This document shows, in pieces, positions 1,731-9,587 of a DNA stretch of 64,000 nt. The stretch comes from Synergistaceae bacterium (lineage in GTDB: Bacteria > Synergistota > Synergistia > Synergistales > Synergistaceae), in NCBI GenBank assembly GCA_030533085.1, contig JAUNJZ010000004.1, positions 1-64,000 on the forward strand, written 5' to 3'. The translations under genes were made by a program, and so were the position numbers. How positions within the stretch are numbered: position 1 is the first letter of the stretch; every line of letters begins with the position of its first letter. Under the pieces are notes generated by a model, which searched no databases, was not told where the DNA came from, and saw nothing but the letters and a program-made list of their open reading frames with translations.

Positions 1731-2881
1731 TACGCCACCCCCTTCGCGGCAAGCAGCTCTTTCATCGTTCTCTCAAGAATGTCGATCCCCTCCGCGGCAA
1801 TCTCCTCTGTCGCGGCAAAGGAGGGAAGCAGCCGCACGACGCGCGGCCCCGCCGGAAGCGCCAACAGCCCGTTATTCTGCAAGCTCCTGACTATATCCTG
1901 CGACGGCAGCTCGCTCTCCGCGCCGATAAGCAGCCCATCGCCGCGCACGCCGTGAATGCCGGGTATGGCGCGCCTTTCTATCTCGCTGCGGATAAAACAG
2001 CCCAGAGCTTCCGCGTGGGAACAGAGCTTTTTCTCCTCTATCAGCTTCAGCGCGGCCAGCGATACCCGCGCGGTCAGCTCGTTGCCTCCGTAGGTGGAGC
2101 CGTGCGAATGTGGCGGGAAGTCGCCCAGCTCGCCGCGCCATATCATAGCTCCGGCGGGCAGCCCTCCGGCCAGCCCCTTAGCCAGCGCTATAATGTCGGG
2201 TCGGAGGCCGTGCCTAGGCGACGCGAAGAAGCTGCCGCAGCGCCCAAGGCCGCACTGTACCTCGTCGGCCGCAAGCAGCGCCCCATGCTCGCGGCAGCTA
2301 TCGCTTATAGCGCGGCCGACCTCTTCCGATATAGGATATACGCCGCCCTCTCCCTGTACCGGCTCGATAAATACTACGGCGGTATCGTCGCTGATTTTCG
2401 CGGCGATATCCTCCGGCGCGTAGTGCTTCACAGCCGGGATAAGCGATGCGAAGGGGGCGCGGTATTTCGGGTTGAAGGTGAGCCCCAGCGCGCCGCAGCT
2501 TCGCCCGTGAAAGCCGCGGCGGCAGGCGATCAGCTCGCTTCGTCCGCTCCGCAGCGAGACGGCAAGCTTCAGCGCCGCCTCTATAGCCTCCGTGCCGCTG
2601 TTGCAGAGAAAAACGCGCCCATCTCCCAGCCTGCCGCCGAGCGCGGCGGCCAGCTCCTCCCGCACCGGCGACTCGTAGCCTGCGCCGCAGCTCCACAATC
2701 CGGCGGCCGCCTCGCGCAGCGCGCCGGTCAGCTCCGGGTTCGCGTGGCCGAAAAGCGCCGCGCCGTGTCCGTTGAAAAAGTCGATATAGCGTCTCCCGCC
2801 GGCGTCCGTCACAAAGGCCCCGTCGCCCCCCGTGAGCGCAAGCCCGCGCCCTCCGTACAGCCTGCTCAGCGCGCCAGACAT
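1730..2881 (-). CDS. lysJ: [LysW]-aminoadipate/glutamate semialdehyde aminotransferase
   Basis: Class-III PLP-dependent aminotransferase of 383 residues. It transfers an amino group to the LysW-bound semialdehyde, giving LysW-lysine or LysW-ornithine. The cofactor residues are present: D206 in ALLAADEVQCGLG contacts the pyridine nitrogen and K235 in IALAKGLAGG forms the Schiff base. The phosphate-binding region CNSGTEAIEAALK is near residue 93. The ATG at 2881 lies inside the end of lysZ (16-base overlap) and the stop overlaps the lysK start, typical of a tightly packed operon. ArgD and GabT homologues share these motifs, so the LysJ name depends on the flanking lysW, lysX and lysZ genes. Confidence 0.93.
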   Translation of the reverse strand: MSGALSRLYGGRGLALTGGDGAFVTDAGGRRYIDFFNGHGAALFGHANPELTGALREAAAGLWSCGAGYESPVREELAAALGGRLGDGRVFLCNSGTEAIEAALKLAVSLRSGRSELIACRRGFHGRSCGALGLTFNPKYRAPFASLIPAVKHYAPEDIAAKISDDTAVVFIEPVQGEGGVYPISEEVGRAISDSCREHGALLAADEVQCGLGRCGSFFASPRHGLRPDIIALAKGLAGGLPAGAMIWRGELGDFPPHSHGSTYGGNELTARVSLAALKLIEEKKLCSHAEALGCFIRSEIERRAIPGIHGVRGDGLLIGAESELPSQDIVRSLQNNGLLALPAGPRVVRLLPSFAATEEIAAEGIDILERTMKELLAAKGVA

Positions 2882-3678
2882 GTCGAGCGCCCCTCCATGG
2901 CGTTTCTTACAGGCGAATCCGCCCTTCCGTCAGCCAGATAGACGCGGGGAACGGAAAGCTCCAGCGCCTCACGGCAGGCGACAAGCTTCCGCTTCATATT
3001 TCCGCGCGCGTAATGCTCCAATATATCCCACTGAGCGAGATTACCGCTCTCAATCAGCGAATCAGGGTCGTCAATATCCTTCATCAGGCCGGGGACGTTG
3101 GAAAGTATTATCAGCGCCTCTGCCCCGACAGCGCCGGCGATTTGCGCGGCGAGGCGGTCTCCGTCGATATTCAGCGAAAGGCCGGACTCCTCGTCGGAGG
3201 CCAGCGGCGGAACAGTGGGGATCTTCCCCGCGTCAAGCAGCGAAACAAGCGGCGCGGGGTCTATCTTCGTCACAGTGCCGCTGTAATTGCCGCGCAGGAT
3301 ACGAACGCGCCCATTTACGCTCTCGCGCAGAAAATCCTTCCGCTTCGCAAAAACGTAACGGACGGCCTCCGGGTCGGCCTGCTCCGCCTCCGCGCCGCGC
3401 GCCGCAAGCATATCCTTTATACGCGCGCCGTATGAGAGCGCGGCCTCGCGAAACAGCTCCCGTTCGGCCTCGCCGACAAAACGGCTGCGGAAGCCGCTCG
3501 GGCTTGTCACCATGCGCACCTCGACGCCGCGCGCCGCGCAGAGCTCGTCCATAACGCCGCTCGCGCCATGCACGACTATCCAGCGCTCGCCAGCCGCGCA
3601 TCTCGCGGCTATTTCGTCCGCCAGCGGCTCCAGCGCGTTGCCTGAAGCGCCGCCTATCTTTACTACTCCGATCATCAT
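2866..3678 (-). CDS. lysZ: [LysW]-aminoadipate/glutamate kinase
   Basis: Amino-acid kinase family (ArgB-like) protein of 270 residues that phosphorylates the side-chain carboxylate of LysW-bound aminoadipate or glutamate. The N-terminal nucleotide-binding motif VVKIGGASGN (K7, G9, G10), the substrate-loop motif WIVVHGASG and a later LSLNIDGDRLAAQIA stretch fit the family. AGGAGG lies five bases before the first of two adjacent ATG codons (3678 and 3675); either could be used. The ribosome-binding site overlaps the stop codon of lysY, and the 3' end overlaps lysJ, so the middle of the operon is translationally linked. Confidence 0.93.
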   Translation of the reverse strand: MMIGVVKIGGASGNALEPLADEIAARCAAGERWIVVHGASGVMDELCAARGVEVRMVTSPSGFRSRFVGEAERELFREAALSYGARIKDMLAARGAEAEQADPEAVRYVFAKRKDFLRESVNGRVRILRGNYSGTVTKIDPAPLVSLLDAGKIPTVPPLASDEESGLSLNIDGDRLAAQIAGAVGAEALIILSNVPGLMKDIDDPDSLIESGNLAQWDILEHYARGNMKRKLVACREALELSVPRVYLADGRADSPVRNAMEGRSTCLAR

Positions 3679-3687
3679 TTCATCCTC

Positions 3688-4737
3688 CTATGCGGGGTAA
3701 AGCGGCATCATATCCAGCCCCGCGCTCTCCTCAAGCCCAAACATAATATTGGCGCACTGCACGGCGGAGCCGGCCGCCCCCTTCATAAGATTGTCAATCG
3801 CAGAGGCGGCTATCATCCTGCGTCCGTCCTCCGCCAGCACGAAACCGGTCAGAACTCGGTTGCTGCCGATCACGAAGCGCGGATCCGGAATGCGGAAATG
3901 CGCCGGCTTCGCGGCTGTGAAGGATACGAAAGTCTCTCCCTTCCACGCGGCGCGGTACAGCTTCCAGATATCCGCCTCGCGCTGCTGACGGTTCAGCGTA
4001 AGATGAGCCAGACACTGAATACCGCGCACCATCTCCACCGCCGTGACACCCATCGTGAATGCCTGTCTGGGAACGGAAAGCTCCTGCTCCACCTCCGCCA
4101 TGTGGCGATGGACGAAGGGGCTGACCACGCGCAGCGCGCGGCTCCGCACGGCGTGAGCGGAACCTTCGTCCGCCCCCGCCCCCGACTCAGACGAACCGAC
4201 GCGGCACTCGATACGGGCGCTTTCAATCAGCCCCGCGCGCGCCAGCGGAAGCAAAGCCGTTATCGCGGCCGTCGCGTTGCAGCCGACCCCCGATATAAGG
4301 CGGGCATTAGCCATCTCCGCGCGGTGCAGCTCCGGCAGGCCGTAAACCGCCTCCGAGAGAAGCGACGGGGCGGGATGCTCCACGCCGTACCACTCCTGAT
4401 ACGCCTCAGCGCTGCGCAGCCTGAAATCCGCGGAAAGATCGATCACGCGCTCCCCCGCCTCCAGCCGCCGAAGCGCCTCACGCGCCGACGCGCGGTGCGG
4501 CAGAGCGAGAAAAGCCGCCGCCGGCGAAAGCCCCTCCGCATCCTCCGGCGAAATAAATGTCATATCGTTATAGACGTGGCGAAGCTGCGGATGAACCGCC
4601 CCGACCGCAACGCCCGCCTTTGAGCGAGAAACCGCCCCTATCACCTCAAAACGGGGATGGCGCGCGAATATCCTCAGCAGCTCCGCGCCGGCGAAGCCCG
4701 TCGCCCCCCAAATCGTTACCGGAATAGCCGTAGTCAT
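3688..4737 (-). CDS. lysY: [LysW]-aminoadipate/glutamate semialdehyde reductase
   Basis: ArgC-type NADPH-dependent reductase of 349 residues that reduces the LysW-bound acyl phosphate to the semialdehyde. The N-terminal Rossmann motif is IWGATGFAGAELL (residues 9-21), and the catalytic cysteine is C153 in SGVGCNATA. AGGAG lies eight bases upstream of the ATG. It follows a 230-bp interval containing a short ORF and a terminator, so expression of lysY and the genes after it may be controlled separately from lysW-lysX. ArgC of the acetyl-glutamate pathway is the alternative identity; the linked lysW, lysX and lysZ argue for LysY. Confidence 0.93.
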   Translation of the reverse strand: MTTAIPVTIWGATGFAGAELLRIFARHPRFEVIGAVSRSKAGVAVGAVHPQLRHVYNDMTFISPEDAEGLSPAAAFLALPHRASAREALRRLEAGERVIDLSADFRLRSAEAYQEWYGVEHPAPSLLSEAVYGLPELHRAEMANARLISGVGCNATAAITALLPLARAGLIESARIECRVGSSESGAGADEGSAHAVRSRALRVVSPFVHRHMAEVEQELSVPRQAFTMGVTAVEMVRGIQCLAHLTLNRQQREADIWKLYRAAWKGETFVSFTAAKPAHFRIPDPRFVIGSNRVLTGFVLAEDGRRMIAASAIDNLMKGAAGSAVQCANIMFGLEESAGLDMMPLYPA

Positions 4738-4800: not shown

Positions 4801-4830
4801 AAAAAAAGCCCGCTTCCCCCGGAAGCGAGC
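4801..4830 (-). terminator. Intrinsic terminator inside the lys operon (possible attenuator)
   Basis: On the minus strand a ten-pair stem (one G-U pair) with a three-base loop is followed immediately by seven T residues. It stands between lysX and lysY, 26 bases after the stop of a Lys-rich short ORF. The 5' arm (4822-4827) is also complementary over six bases to 4851-4856, at that ORF's stop codon, so a competing antiterminator can be drawn. Confidence 0.85.
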
Positions 4831-4855
4831 CGTCCCCTTGCCCTTTGCGCCGCTT

Positions 4856-4966
4856 CTAAACCGGCGCGGCAAAAAAGCACGACTCGTCGGGCAACCGCTT
4901 AACCCCGCGCTTGCACTTATCCTCAGCCTTTTTTATCTCGTTAAAAAATACGGACAGCGCCGTCAT
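4856..4966 (-). CDS. Short Lys-rich ORF between lysX and lysY (36 aa; candidate leader peptide)
   Basis: The ATG lies one base after the lysX stop (TGAGATG) and has AGGAG eight bases upstream. The product is 36 residues with five Lys and two Arg between residues 12 and 24 (IKKAEDKCKRGVKRL). It resembles no protein family I know. It is followed by an intrinsic terminator and then the rest of the lysine pathway. This is the layout of an amino-acid attenuation leader, although here it is inside the operon. It could instead be a real small protein or a chance ORF. Confidence 0.5.
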   Translation of the reverse strand: MTALSVFFNEIKKAEDKCKRGVKRLPDESCFFAAPV

Positions 4967-4967
4967 C

Positions 4968-5804
4968 TCAGCCTCTCCTGCTCCACGCCGCCTCCACGAC
5001 CGCGCCGGGGATATCCTTTCCCGTCGGGGCTATGGAATTGCGGAACTCTCCGCCGTCGTTGACCTCGTTGACAAGCCAGCGGCCGCCGCTTTTGAAAAGA
5101 TCCACGGCGAGAAACTCTCCGCCAATGGCCGCGTGAACGGAGCGCAGCAGCGAAGCCAGCTCGCCGTCTACCTCCTTATTGGAGGCTGAGCCGCCGCGCG
5201 CCGTGTTCGTTATCCAATGCCCGCTTGTGCGCGCAATGGCGCAGAGCGGCTCCCCGTCAACGACGAAAGCGCGCACGTCGAAATTTCCCTTGTCAACGAA
5301 CTCCTGAATATAAAATGTATTGTGAATCGCCCCAAGCATCGACTTATGCTCAAAGACAGCCTCCGCGCTCTCCCTGTCGTTAAGCTTCGCCAGCAGCCGC
5401 CCCCAGCTTCCGCTCACCGGCTTGCAGACGGCGGGATAGCCAAGCTCCTCAACGGCGGCAAGAGCCGCCTCCGGCGTGAAAGCGACGAGATAGCGCGGCT
5501 GAGGCAGCCCCGCCTCCTCCAGAGCGGCGGAAGTGGAGAGCTTATTGCCGCATAGCTCCATCACCCGCGAAGAATTGACGACCCTGACTCCCTGCGTCTC
5601 GAGCATACGGGCCACCGCCTCATTCTGATTGTGCGAAACACAGCGGGAAAGAACGACGTCGTCAGCCGAGCAGAAAGGCGCTCCGCCGAAAACGCTGTCG
5701 CTCACATTCTGAAGCTCGCAGGGAATGCCAAGACGCTCCGCCGCTTCCTTCAGCAGCTTCTCCTCGGCGCGCAGCCTCGTGAAAAGAATACGCAGAGTCG
5801 CCAT
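4968..5804 (-). CDS. lysX: LysW-2-aminoadipate/glutamate ligase (ATP-grasp)
   Basis: RimK-like ATP-grasp enzyme of 278 residues that joins the amino group of aminoadipate (or glutamate) to the C-terminal glutamate of LysW, protecting the amino group for the pathway. ATP-grasp features are visible: the lid-region motif AVCKPVSGSWGR near residue 130, the segment FLAVDLFKSGGRWLVNEVN with its metal ligands near residue 240, and a final NSIAPTG motif. The ATG at 5804 overlaps the lysW stop (TAATG); a TTG at 5816 would sit too close to AGGAGG. It is the second gene of the operon. Confidence 0.93.
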   Translation of the reverse strand: MATLRILFTRLRAEEKLLKEAAERLGIPCELQNVSDSVFGGAPFCSADDVVLSRCVSHNQNEAVARMLETQGVRVVNSSRVMELCGNKLSTSAALEEAGLPQPRYLVAFTPEAALAAVEELGYPAVCKPVSGSWGRLLAKLNDRESAEAVFEHKSMLGAIHNTFYIQEFVDKGNFDVRAFVVDGEPLCAIARTSGHWITNTARGGSASNKEVDGELASLLRSVHAAIGGEFLAVDLFKSGGRWLVNEVNDGGEFRNSIAPTGKDIPGAVVEAAWSRRG

Positions 5805-5971
5805 TACTCGCCCCAATCCTCCTGAACCTGCGGAGCCTCCTCCACCGTAAGCGGCTCAAGAGAAACGACCTCAAGCTCCGTTCCGCAGTCGGGACAGATA
5901 AGAAGCTCCCCCTCGCAGCAATCCTGCGGGATGGTCACGTCGGCCTCACAAACGATACAAGTTGCGGTCAT
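5804..5971 (-). CDS. lysW: LysW amino-group carrier protein
   Basis: A 55-residue acidic carrier protein. Zinc-ribbon cysteines appear as CIVC (residues 5-8) and CPDC (26-29), and the protein ends in EDWGE, the conserved tail whose terminal glutamate carries the substrate through an isopeptide bond. This C-terminal signature is diagnostic. GGAGGT lies nine bases upstream of the ATG. It is the first gene of the lys operon, preceded by a strong promoter and a leader of about 185 nt. All later enzymes of the operon act on intermediates attached to this protein. Confidence 0.95.
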   Translation of the reverse strand: MTATCIVCEADVTIPQDCCEGELLICPDCGTELEVVSLEPLTVEEAPQVQEDWGE

Positions 5972-6162: not shown

Positions 6163-6190
6163 ATAATACACCTATATCTATATTTGTCAA
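6163..6190 (-). promoter_or_regulatory. Promoter of the lysW operon
   Basis: A perfect -35 TTGACA (6185-6190) and a -10 TATTAT (6163-6168) are separated by 16 bases on the minus strand, 5' of lysW. Transcription would begin near 6156, leaving an AT-rich leader of about 185 nt before the lysW ATG. I see no lysine-riboswitch core in that leader. Confidence 0.7.
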
Positions 6191-6227: not shown

Positions 6228-7721
6228 CTATTTTTCAGGGCGCAGCCAGAGGTAGAAGAGCGTTTCGCCTCCGATTACTTTCTCTCCGCGGCTGTCGAGC
6301 GTTTCTGTCGATACGGTGTAGAGCCTCTTGCCGGGGGCGGCGGGCAGCTTTATTTCGTGGCGGAACTCATATATCGAGGGCGACGCCCATTTTTCATCGC
6401 GCGGGTCGTAGAAGCGTTCAAGGCCGGTGGGAAATTCAAGCTCTATCAGCTCGCCTAGGCTTTTTTCCTCCAAGCGGTATCTCACGCCGGCGATTCTGTT
6501 TTTTATCGTGAAGCTTCCGTCCCCATTCTCCTCCACATCGGAGAGCATCGGCTGTATCGGCGGCGTTACGCCGTACAGCGTCACGCTTTCGCCCGGACGC
6601 GCGGCGACTGAATCATATACATTCCAGTCCACGACGCCGGCATTCTCCGTCGGATAATAGCTTTTCGGCCTCGCTCCGACCTCCGCGCGAGTGAAGCGCA
6701 GCAGCTCTCCCTCTTCGAGCCGCGTCAGCTCCCCCTCTTTTGTGCGTTCGCCATCCCAGGCGGCATATTTCAGCGACGGCTCGCCGATATCGTAGCAGTA
6801 GAAAAATATCTCGTCGCCGCGGAAGAGACGCCCTTCGTAGGCTATCCGCCCAAGCTCCACCTCCTGCGCGGCGCAGCGCTCCTCCGGTATGTTGTAGAGC
6901 ATCGTATGGACGAAGCCGGACATATATTCAAGGCTGTCGTTTGCGCGCCAGCGGAGCGGTATTTCGCAGGGCCGCGGCAGAGCGGCGGACCAGTAGCCGG
7001 GGAATGGGTCGCGGTACACGCGCCAGCCTTTGGCGCGGGCCAGCTCCGTCGCCTTTTTCATATGCGCGGGGGGCGAGAAGCGGGAGAGCAGCTTGTCCGG
7101 CACGGAGCCGAACATAACGTCGATATAGCGCTCGTCCAGAAGCTCGCCGCGGCAGCGCGCGCTGACAGTGACGCGATAATAGCGCCAGCCTAAATCTTCG
7201 CCGTACAGCTCCCTGTAAGAGCTGTCATAATCCTTCGTGCAGCCGCCCTGAACCAGCGCCGCGTAGCCCCCTTCGGTGACGGCGGCCTTGACGCGCGGGT
7301 CGTAGAAAGAATCCGGGTCGCCGTGACGGTACACAAGATCAGGCGGCGGCGAGAGCGTCAGCTGCTCCGGCGTGAGCTTCGTCCACGGGGCCTTGCCCTC
7401 ATAGCGGAAATATATGTCGCGGCGCGGCGTTATTCCCGTCGCCGAATCCACGCGGCTCTCCACCACGCGCAGCGGCCTGCGGATATTGTCGCGCATCAGT
7501 CCGGCGTCTGCCACCTCGACGCGGATATCGACCGGCTGGTCGGCTGGGGAAATTCCCTCCCTGTCTATGCGCCCCGCCACGTAAAAGTCGCGTCCCGATT
7601 CCATTACGCTTTCTTCGACGGAGGGAATATCTATCGTTATTTTAAGCGCCTCAGCCCCGCGCGGCGCGGCGAGGGCGCAGAGGCATGTCAGCGCCGCCGT
7701 CAGTAATATTTTTCCTTTCAT
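6228..7721 (-). CDS. Large secreted protein of unknown function (497 aa)
   Basis: The N terminus is a signal peptide (MKGKILLTAALTCLCALAA, then RGAEA) with cleavage likely near residue 25. The rest is a soluble, mixed alpha/beta protein without membrane segments, rich in Arg, Glu and Tyr. Residues 27-75 (ITIDIPSVEE, then DFYVAGRIDREG) look like an immunoglobulin-type beta domain. I recognise no enzyme motif. AGAGG lies eight bases before the ATG, and a TATAAT-like -10 stands at 7758-7763. There are several cysteines, possibly disulfide-bonded in the periplasm. It is a single-gene unit between the lys operon and the GLUG surface protein gene. Confidence 0.7.
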   Translation of the reverse strand: MKGKILLTAALTCLCALAAPRGAEALKITIDIPSVEESVMESGRDFYVAGRIDREGISPADQPVDIRVEVADAGLMRDNIRRPLRVVESRVDSATGITPRRDIYFRYEGKAPWTKLTPEQLTLSPPPDLVYRHGDPDSFYDPRVKAAVTEGGYAALVQGGCTKDYDSSYRELYGEDLGWRYYRVTVSARCRGELLDERYIDVMFGSVPDKLLSRFSPPAHMKKATELARAKGWRVYRDPFPGYWSAALPRPCEIPLRWRANDSLEYMSGFVHTMLYNIPEERCAAQEVELGRIAYEGRLFRGDEIFFYCYDIGEPSLKYAAWDGERTKEGELTRLEEGELLRFTRAEVGARPKSYYPTENAGVVDWNVYDSVAARPGESVTLYGVTPPIQPMLSDVEENGDGSFTIKNRIAGVRYRLEEKSLGELIELEFPTGLERFYDPRDEKWASPSIYEFRHEIKLPAAPGKRLYTVSTETLDSRGEKVIGGETLFYLWLRPEK

Positions 7722-7874: not shown

Positions 7875-9587
7875 TTACTTTTTTCTTCTCCGCAGCGCAA
7901 ACGGCAACAGCGCGAGCAGCGCCGTTGCTCCTATGCCGGCGGCGCAGCCGCCGGAAGAGCCGCCTGACGGCGTCGGGGTCGGAGTCGGCGCGCCGTTTAC
8001 CGTTACGGCACAGGTTGCCGTGAAAGCGCCCTCTTCGGTCGTTACCGTTATCGTCGCCGTGCCGGCGGCTATTGCCGTTACAAGGCCGTTCGCGTCTACC
8101 GTGGCGACGGCGCTGTTGTCGCTTGACCAGCTCACATTCCGGTTTGTCGCGCCGGCTGGCAGCACTGTCGCGGTGAGCTGCGCCGTGTTCGAGCTGCCGG
8201 CGGTCAAATTAAGCTCCGTGGATGAGAGCGTCACGCCGGTAACTGCTATTGGCGGTACGACGGTTACCGCGCAGCTCAGGTCGGCAGATATGCCTGGCGT
8301 TACAGCGCTGCCGATGCTGGCGAAGTTTGTCGCCTTTATTTCAACGTTGGCCGCCGTCAGCGTCGCTCTGCCATCGGCGATTCCCGTCAGCCTGTACGGC
8401 CAGCTGTTGTCGATGCTGGCAATGTCGGGGGAAATGCTGGTCGAGGTTACGGAGAAGTAACCGCTCATATCCGCCGACGTGCCAGGGTAGGAGGCGAAGG
8501 CCGCCACTCTGCCGTTCAGGCTGACCGTGATATTGCGCTCTTTCGGGAGGACTGTCGTTACGACCATATTCTTTTGCGTCTGGTCGAGCGATACTACGTG
8601 GGTGGGGTTGCTGCCGCTGTTATCGCCGACAGCATTAAGACCCGCGTTGATATCACCGGAGACGAGCCAGCCGCAGTTCGTTATCGTGCCGTTGCTGCCG
8701 TTATACCCCGCGACGCCCCCAGCGTAGTTGCTGCCGGAGCCGGAGGCCGTGACAACGCCGAGGCTCGCGCAGTTCGTTATCGTTTGGGCGTTATACCCCG
8801 CGACGCCGCCCGCGTGGTTTTGGCTGCCGCTGTCGGAGGCCGTGACAGCGCCGGCGCTCGCGCAGTTCGTTATCGTACCGTTGCTGCTGTTCGACCCCGC
8901 GACGCCCCCAGCGTAGTTGCTGCCGGAACCGGAGGCCGTGACATCGCCGAGGCTCGCGCAGTTCGTTATCGCGCCGGATAAGTTATTCCCCGCGACGCCG
9001 CCCGCGTAGATGCCGTTGCCGCTGGAGCCGGAGGCCGTAACAGCGCCGCCGTTCAGGCAGTTCGCTATCGTGCTTTCGTTCTGCCCAGCAACGCCGCCCA
9101 CGTTGCTGGCGCCGCCTACGCCTCTGGCAGAGGCTCTGACAGCGCCTCTGTTTTCGCAGTTCGATATCACGCCTAGGTTATCCCCCGCGACGCCGCCCGC
9201 GTATAACATCCAGTCTTCGCCGCCGTCGACGTTTATATCGCCGCTGACGGTGAGATTGCGCACGTCGCCGCTCGCGGCTATCAGGCCAAAGAGGCCGGCG
9301 TAGTAGCTCCTGTATCCATTCGAAGTAAGGTCATTTGAGGTTATTGTGTAGCTGCTGACTGTGTGGCCGCCGCCGTCGAATTTGCCGGCGTACCGAAGGT
9401 TGCCGTTGGCGATGGGAATCCAGTTCGCGCCGCCGAGGTCTATATCGGCGGTGAGCTTCGCGTCAGATGAGATTGGGATACCGCCGCTGTTTATGCTATC
9501 GCGGAACCATATGAGGTCGCCGCTTGCGGCTATCAGATAAGTTCCGTTCGCATCCCGCTGCGGCGCTGTCGCCGCCCGCGCCGGCAC
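7875..9587 (-). CDS. Cell-surface protein with GLUG repeats, Big2 domain and Synerg-CTERM tail (signal peptide out of frame)
   Basis: The readable part is 570 residues: GLUG-type repeats (ITNCASLGDVTASGSGSNYA and variants, about residues 120-310), an intermediate beta region, a bacterial Ig-like Big2 domain (residues ~445-530, with SWSSDNSAVATVD) and a C-terminal Gly/Ser-Cys, hydrophobic helix, RRRKK tail typical of Synerg-CTERM sorting signals. The frame from the GTG at 9587 starts inside the signal peptide: the open frame upstream reads VYFALLSLLLLISLFAFAV before it but has no ATG, GTG or TTG. A well-placed start at 9717 with AAGGAG and a promoter lies one frame away across a run of ten G/C. 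The intact protein is therefore expected only when that run changes length. Confidence 0.8.
   Translation of the reverse strand: MPARAATAPQRDANGTYLIAASGDLIWFRDSINSGGIPISSDAKLTADIDLGGANWIPIANGNLRYAGKFDGGGHTVSSYTITSNDLTSNGYRSYYAGLFGLIAASGDVRNLTVSGDINVDGGEDWMLYAGGVAGDNLGVISNCENRGAVRASARGVGGASNVGGVAGQNESTIANCLNGGAVTASGSSGNGIYAGGVAGNNLSGAITNCASLGDVTASGSGSNYAGGVAGSNSSNGTITNCASAGAVTASDSGSQNHAGGVAGYNAQTITNCASLGVVTASGSGSNYAGGVAGYNGSNGTITNCGWLVSGDINAGLNAVGDNSGSNPTHVVSLDQTQKNMVVTTVLPKERNITVSLNGRVAAFASYPGTSADMSGYFSVTSTSISPDIASIDNSWPYRLTGIADGRATLTAANVEIKATNFASIGSAVTPGISADLSCAVTVVPPIAVTGVTLSSTELNLTAGSSNTAQLTATVLPAGATNRNVSWSSDNSAVATVDANGLVTAIAAGTATITVTTEEGAFTATCAVTVNGAPTPTPTPSGGSSGGCAAGIGATALLALLPFALRRRKK
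8660..9180 (-). repeat. Intragenic repeats encoding GLUG units
   Basis: Imperfect copies of a roughly 80-110-bp unit recur, sharing a core near 8740, 8848 and 8931 (GAGGCCGTGACA, then CTCGCGCAGTTCGTTATCG). They encode the repeated GGVAG...ITNC...G.V.AS motif of the surface protein. Such repeats can change in copy number by recombination. Confidence 0.7.

Follow-up and report, generated by a model that had tools for sequence, protein, structure and literature searches.

The lysWXYZJK operon of a Synergistaceae bacterium, found in the 64,000-nucleotide stretch of DNA analysed here (the window), appears to contain an internal, ribosome-mediated transcription attenuator between lysX and lysY, a reading to which we give a probability of about three in four. 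The source genome (G000; phylum Synergistota, family f1 in the numbering of this analysis) has Candidatus Caccocola faecipullorum as its nearest named relative, with a LysX identity of 87%. All features of the unit lie on the minus strand, in the order lysW (carrier protein, 5804-5971; NCBIfam TIGR01206, 60.9 bits, cut-off 53.2), lysX (LysW:amino-acid ligase, 4968-5804; TIGR02144, 276.3 bits, cut-off 275.6), a 36-codon ORF, a terminator and then, as the first gene past it, lysY (argC-like, 3688-4737; TIGR01850, 320 bits, cut-off 233.6). The operon continues with lysZ (LysW-aminoadipate/glutamate kinase type, 2866-3678; NF010659, 210 bits, below the cut-off of 223), lysJ (argD-like aminotransferase, 1730-2881; TIGR00707, 338 bits, below the cut-off of 410) and lysK (LysW-lysine/ornithine hydrolase type, 696-1730; TIGR01902, 227 bits, cut-off 163). 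Its likely promoter is TTGACA-16-TATTAT at 6163-6190, identified purely as a consensus match (11 of 12 positions). The same strand carries, at 7875-9587, a surface-protein-like ORF of 570 residues with GVAGYN-type repeats, an Ig-like stretch and the C-terminal sequence GIGATALLALLPFALRRRKK.

The lysX stop codon (4970-4968) is followed after a single base by the leader ORF (4966-4856; MTALSVFFNEIKKAEDKCKRGVKRLPDESCFFAAPV), which runs for 36 codons plus TAG, carries the motif KCKRGVKR, has five Lys and two Arg among codons 12-24, and matches no NCBIfam family. Its ribosome-binding site, AGGAGAGG at 4979-4972, lies within the 3' end of lysX just 5' of the ATG, and the unit has the short ORF with start codon and ribosome-binding site that is looked for ahead of an attenuator's terminator. 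The intrinsic terminator itself (4831-4801) is formed by arms 4831-4821 and 4817-4807, a stem of 11 pairs, 7 of them G-C, with a T-rich tail whose U run extends to 4801. The initial annotation had placed the ORF, the ribosome-binding site and the terminator correctly and had counted the codons correctly; the 26 bases it gave between stop codon and terminator become 24 under the stem definition used here. A terminator scan finds 19 candidates in 14 kb against 13.7 expected, so that the window terminator is unremarkable by the scan alone, and its significance comes from its conservation across the family. A mimicry of the terminator by AAGCGGGTTT of the ORF, seen by eye in L018-L022, is absent from the other groups and was dropped.

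A consensus fold obtained with MAFFT and RNAalifold from 22 family loci with 21 distinct sequences, L023-L026 being excluded as deep members, consists of two compatible parts, a hairpin termed H1 and an antiterminator with a nested inner hairpin, P2. H1 (4914-4891; arms 4914-4907 and 4898-4891) covaries, with 86.6% of cells paired and five pairs changed on both sides, and it coincides with the codons of KCKRGIKR, the family form of the motif. The 5' strand of the antiterminator, R2 (CGAGTCGT, 4886-4879; family consensus GGGYCGT), lies inside the ORF, and its 3' strand, R3 (ACGGCTCG, 4833-4826; family consensus ACGGCYC), sits at the start of the terminator 5' arm and overlaps it; the R2:R3 helix is paired in 91.0% of cells. 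P2 (4867-4847; 4867-4862 with 4852-4847) holds the ORF's TAG (4858-4856) in its loop and is weaker (69.8% of cells paired), and by eye a different inner helix takes its place in L009, L011-L013, L015 and L016. Antiterminator and terminator are both conserved and mutually exclusive. The terminator helix is 93.1% paired, with no covariation beyond that of shuffles, and on the alignment that includes it (A1) RNAalifold by default returns the terminator plus an H1 core instead, as expected for mutually exclusive folds.

On A1, H1, R2:R3 and P2 together have 84.1% of cells paired and double changes in 12 of 25 pairs, and the number of double-change cells (46) compares with a shuffled mean of 21.0; none of 500 shuffles matches the paired cells, the double-change cells or the covariation score, and sliding the structure by one to three columns lowers pairing to 28-42%. 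L010 pairs poorly, and L125, which lies outside the sample, supplies a new compensated R2:R3 pair (GGGCUGU with ACAGCCC). Across loci the R2 consensus GGGYCGT is read as G-S-W (L002), x-G-R (L009) and W-V-V (L023, L033), that is, in all three frames of the ORF, which argues that R2 is constrained as RNA and not as protein. The Ile codon of KRGIKR, which falls in the H1 loop (GTT at 4904-4902 in the window), is ATA in nearly all f1 sequences, an odd choice for GC-rich genomes; exceptions are GTT in L001 and ATG in L010.

The mechanism proposed from this arrangement is as follows. A ribosome that initiates on the leader directly after lysX would meet the Lys-Arg codons lying in H1 and, if Lys-tRNA and/or Arg-tRNA were short, would stall there, leaving R2 free to pair with R3 with P2 nested inside; R2:R3 would then occupy the terminator 5' arm and lysYZJK would be transcribed. 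Were the codons read at speed, the ribosome would arrive at the stop codon, which the P2 loop contains; P2 could then not form, R2:R3 would fail, and the terminator would end the transcript after lysX. In families f2 and f10 the same segment would be met as the C-terminal tail of LysX. Translation of the ORF, stalling, the direction of control and the amino acid sensed are what we infer from the sequence, with lysine plus arginine as the first choice for the last of these and lysine alone as the second.

Equilibrium folding with the ribosome footprint blocked out, a model that leaves kinetics outside, gives the window a simulated antiterminator probability of 0.89 for free RNA and 0.98 for a stall at either motif Lys; a ribosome at the stop codon lowers it to 0.04, with the terminator at 0.97. 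The corresponding means over 21 loci are 0.39 free, 0.42 and 0.56 at the two stall sites and 0.08 at the stop. In 18 loci a ribosome at the second Lys leaves the antiterminator more probable than one at the stop does, in two the values are equal and in one the order is reversed. Under a stall at the second motif Lys the terminator still wins in 7 of the 21 loci (antiterminator below 0.2), and in L016 the antiterminator persists with the ribosome at the stop. The earlier proposal of an operon-internal attenuator with a translated leader, in which stalling gives read-through and completion gives termination, is supported; the antiterminator that it named, 4851-4856 with 4822-4827, fails. Its segments GAAGCG and CGCTTC are complementary in the window, but the pairing is not conserved (55.6% of cells among 21 relatives, with 498 of 500 shuffles as good), and it was rejected on this comparative evidence; R2:R3, H1 and P2 reach 84.1% (0 of 500).

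A terminator parser was run on 39 loci, L041 being excluded for its undetermined bases; it found no terminator in L033, L036, L037 and L043, and 35 loci were scored. In 33 of the 35, sequence upstream of the stop codon pairs with the terminator 5' arm while the 3' arm has yet to be made, and the two negatives, L042 and L051, are those where the parser's choice of terminator is doubtful. L042 and L043 lack a good U run, and in L036 and L037 the ORF continues through the terminator. The duplex energy of the R2 region with R3 clearly beats shuffles (rank 10 or better of 200) in only 12 of the 35 loci, and the window, at rank 94 of 200, is not among them.

Counts on the peptide rest on 35 distinct ORFs, with start codons picked by the analyst and kinship among the ORFs ignored; L017, identical to L016 in the gap, and L035, a copy of the L034 peptide, were left out. 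The reading frame is retained in all 35 loci, the other two frames holding 63 and 52 stops in 30 and 24 loci. Lys is threefold above expectation from shuffled letters (152 against 51, z 16), Arg is at its expected level (146 against 149), and KR dipeptides, present in 34 of the 35, number 63 against 17. The synonymous share of changed codons is 25.5% against 19.4% under random placement, a value reached in 2 of 200 trials, which suggests a weak constraint at the protein level; weak purifying selection on the peptide is what a leader-peptide role would lead one to expect.

A LysX orthologue at E below 1e-100 is present in 26 of 52 genomes of the family, and in every one of the 26 loci, with lysX and lysY both mapped, an ORF and then a terminator follow lysX; relative to the end of the lysX stop codon, the ORF starts no more than 8 bases upstream and no more than 12 bases downstream. 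At the level of the phylum LysX is found at E 1e-50 in 73 of 185 genomes, and leader ORFs also occur in four families beyond that of the window (f4, f5, f8 and f9). In families f3, f6, f7 and f11 lysX and lysY are adjacent or nearly so, save for two f6 loci with gaps of 98 and 121 bases, which contain no leader ORF. None of 33 LysX loci from outside the phylum has a comparable Lys/Arg-rich tail, and a covariance model of the unit gave no match in five of these loci with wide gaps. Within the phylum, 22 family genomes (21 used in training and one identical copy) each have a single site, scoring 73-111 bits, and the model finds the same site weakly, at 24-26 bits, in G001 and three f5 genomes; L125, independent of model building, scores 79 bits and has a leader with KR three times. 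Elsewhere in the 185 genomes no score exceeds 22.3 bits, although the strict filters may lose weak matches, and no second strong site indicates a regulon that would name the amino acid. The observed succession of ORF and terminator is real and far from chance. Rfam has no family at threshold in the window, lysine riboswitch and T-box (RF00230) included, and a literature search, mostly at record level, found no description of a lysX-lysY leader/terminator unit.

Two departures from the usual layout were seen. In L045 the pair lysW-lysX occurs twice in tandem, and the leader follows the first lysX, ahead of the second lysW, and does not precede lysY. In L079-L082 about 1 kb separates the leader terminator from lysY, containing a short ORF that ends in GHLGRDGEWW and another with the motif GFGHRVHR...DPR, which we take to be citrate-synthase-like; these extra ORFs could bear on how those genomes make the pathway substrate.

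Families f2 and f10 keep the terminator and have no ORF between lysX and lysY, which is literally the situation that the initial annotation had named as evidence against a leader. They do not contradict the leader idea, because LysX itself there ends in a Lys/Arg-rich stretch. The four readable tails, RRMKEEKRGEKRGAKRSAPSCGSSSSGS (L038), GLMKRDKRGEKRGVKRSAPESGASSPGE (L040), SLLKRKPSKTGRNKPACKIAEHRGPEVTNLH (L039) and DIKIKRTKCGIKKDKRAPYKGSGLDEHTES (L044), have 28-31 residues with 4-7 Lys and 2-5 Arg (that of L041 could not be read through undetermined bases); tails in other LysX copies have 0-17 residues, and that of the window ends in SRRG with no such stretch. In L038, L040 and L039 the P2 loop holds the stop codon of LysX itself, and in L044 this codon falls within a wide antiterminator loop. 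Mapped onto the LysX tree, the labels leader, tail and none require 5 changes against a shuffled mean of 28.8. We tentatively propose, at slightly less than even odds, that one Lys/Arg-rich segment serves in some lineages as a separate leader peptide and in others as a C-terminal tail by which completing LysX translation decides transcription of the operon, that its KR pairs read lysine and arginine together, and that the unit is a phylum-specific class of attenuator.

The other lysX copy of f2, whose tail of 6-14 residues contains no more than one Lys and one Arg, precedes a T-box-like leader located between the two lysX copies ahead of lysW (L038, 2461-2710; L040, 5605-5854; L041, 5538-5787) and scoring 30-35 bits with RF00230, below the gathering threshold of 93; its specifier codon is ambiguous in the alignment and was not used. 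L040 also has, at 6984-7081 and upstream of its first lysX, a long and nearly perfect inverted repeat that is matched by plant microRNA models, surely by shape only.

The amino acid read by the attenuator is bound up with the product of the operon. Homocitrate synthase, expected as the source of aminoadipate in a genome with an alpha-aminoadipate lysine operon, exceeds the TIGR02146 cut-off in none of the 185 phylum genomes and in 2 of 14 control genomes. At E 1e-60 nothing matches in G000 (best 80 bits, cut-off 413.55), and a gene could be missing from this genome, which is 95.5% complete; 10 of the 26 family genomes with lysX have no match at that level, in G011 apparently because of a split gene, and 400-residue relatives in some f8-f11 genomes may be homocitrate synthases. 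Among the same 26 genomes argJ is absent from all and lysA is above cut-off in 18, G000 included, and argH is matched in all 52 genomes of the family. With no homocitrate synthase, no argJ and lysA present, ornithine/arginine is more likely than lysine as the product in the genome of the window. The dapL gene is above cut-off in none of the 52 genomes and G000 has no ddh, an absence that leaves room for lysine made through LysJ and LysK shared with the DAP pathway. The active-site stretch HWITNTARGG of the window LysX equals that of Thermus LysX. A five-residue LysX signature is described in PMC10433800; these residues were set aside as proof, the window's VNEVNDGGEF differing from the solved LysX and ArgX sequences.

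That the attenuator senses lysine only and the operon makes lysine, as first annotated, would explain why Lys codons are the only ones strongly enriched and why both motif Lys are retained in several loci where the first motif Arg has become His or Pro, and it fits the Thermus-like active site; the lack of homocitrate synthase, the presence of lysA and a DapB-like gene in G000 (118 bits, cut-off 122) speak against it, and we consider it rather unlikely. The label of a lysine operon is thus doubtful even though the Lys codons of the leader are enriched. Sensing of both amino acids through KR pairs, the preferred reading, would reconcile a Lys-rich leader with a product that is more likely arginine.

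A somewhat less likely explanation is that the RNA is blind to amino acids and gauges only whether a ribosome closely follows the polymerase, in the manner of E. coli rph-pyrE, the Lys/Arg codons serving H1 or slowing the ribosome. Coupling of this kind needs no special codons in the LysX-tail version, and it finds some support in the geometry of the RNA: there are no indels from the H1 3' half to R2 in any of the 21 sequences, R2 ends in U in 20 of them and is followed by G in 15, and this succession of hairpin, fixed 10-12 bases and U followed by G may resemble a hairpin pause site. It leaves unexplained the Lys enrichment across families whose H1 sequences differ. Sensing of arginine alone, as the likely product formed via LysW-glutamate, draws on the missing argJ and homocitrate synthase, on argH and on Arg adjoining Lys in 34 of 35 ORFs, but is improbable given that Arg codons do not exceed composition and are constrained by the H1 stem anyway, and that the first motif Arg gives way to His or Pro in several loci. 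Least probable is a riboswitch-like H1 that binds a protein or small molecule beside an incidental ORF, since its covarying stem and its loop GGRAUAAAG, conserved in most of f1, are set against a loop sequence not kept in f4 or f5, a frame kept in 35 of 35 loci, fusion in frame to LysX in two families and the lack of an Rfam match in the window.

The attenuator proposed here, read by a ribosome on Lys-Arg codons, has partial counterparts among known systems. The lysine cluster of Thermus thermophilus is reportedly controlled by leader-peptide attenuation, as Tsubouchi and colleagues are said to have described in 2005, with the leader upstream of the first gene of the cluster; LysW-pathway genes, a Lys-codon leader and a terminator are shared, whereas the leader in the window is placed after lysX and before lysY, shares sequence with H1 and in some relatives forms part of LysX. 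Enterobacterial trp and his attenuators have control codons in a hairpin, an antiterminator opposed to a terminator and a short leader ORF, all of which recur here. Unlike in that type, the first hairpin does not sequester the antiterminator 5' strand: R2 lies outside H1, so that there is no 1:2 protector, and the consensus fold accommodates H1 together with R2:R3. Moreover, R2 lies inside the ORF, the stop codon lies in a hairpin nested in the antiterminator, and the predicted outcome with no ribosome is read-through or a mixture rather than termination. The rph-pyrE attenuator of E. coli, which according to work attributed to Bonekamp and colleagues (1984) senses UTP through coupling, shares the principle that the end of translation of an upstream gene controls a terminator before the next gene, but has no Lys/Arg-rich tail. 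T-box leaders (RF00230) share control of a terminator by amino-acid supply; the T-box-like leader before lysW in f2 scores 34.7 bits (gathering threshold 93), whereas the unit of the window has no T-box match.

If this reading is correct, the unit would represent a class of attenuators absent from Rfam and, in the genomes examined, confined to Synergistota, in which a switch inside an operon exists in two forms, as a free leader and as a leader built into an enzyme. It would offer a testable case for the origin of leader peptides by splitting from, or fusing to, an upstream gene, and an instance of one attenuator reading two amino acids, and it calls into question the label of lysine attached to this operon in Synergistaceae.
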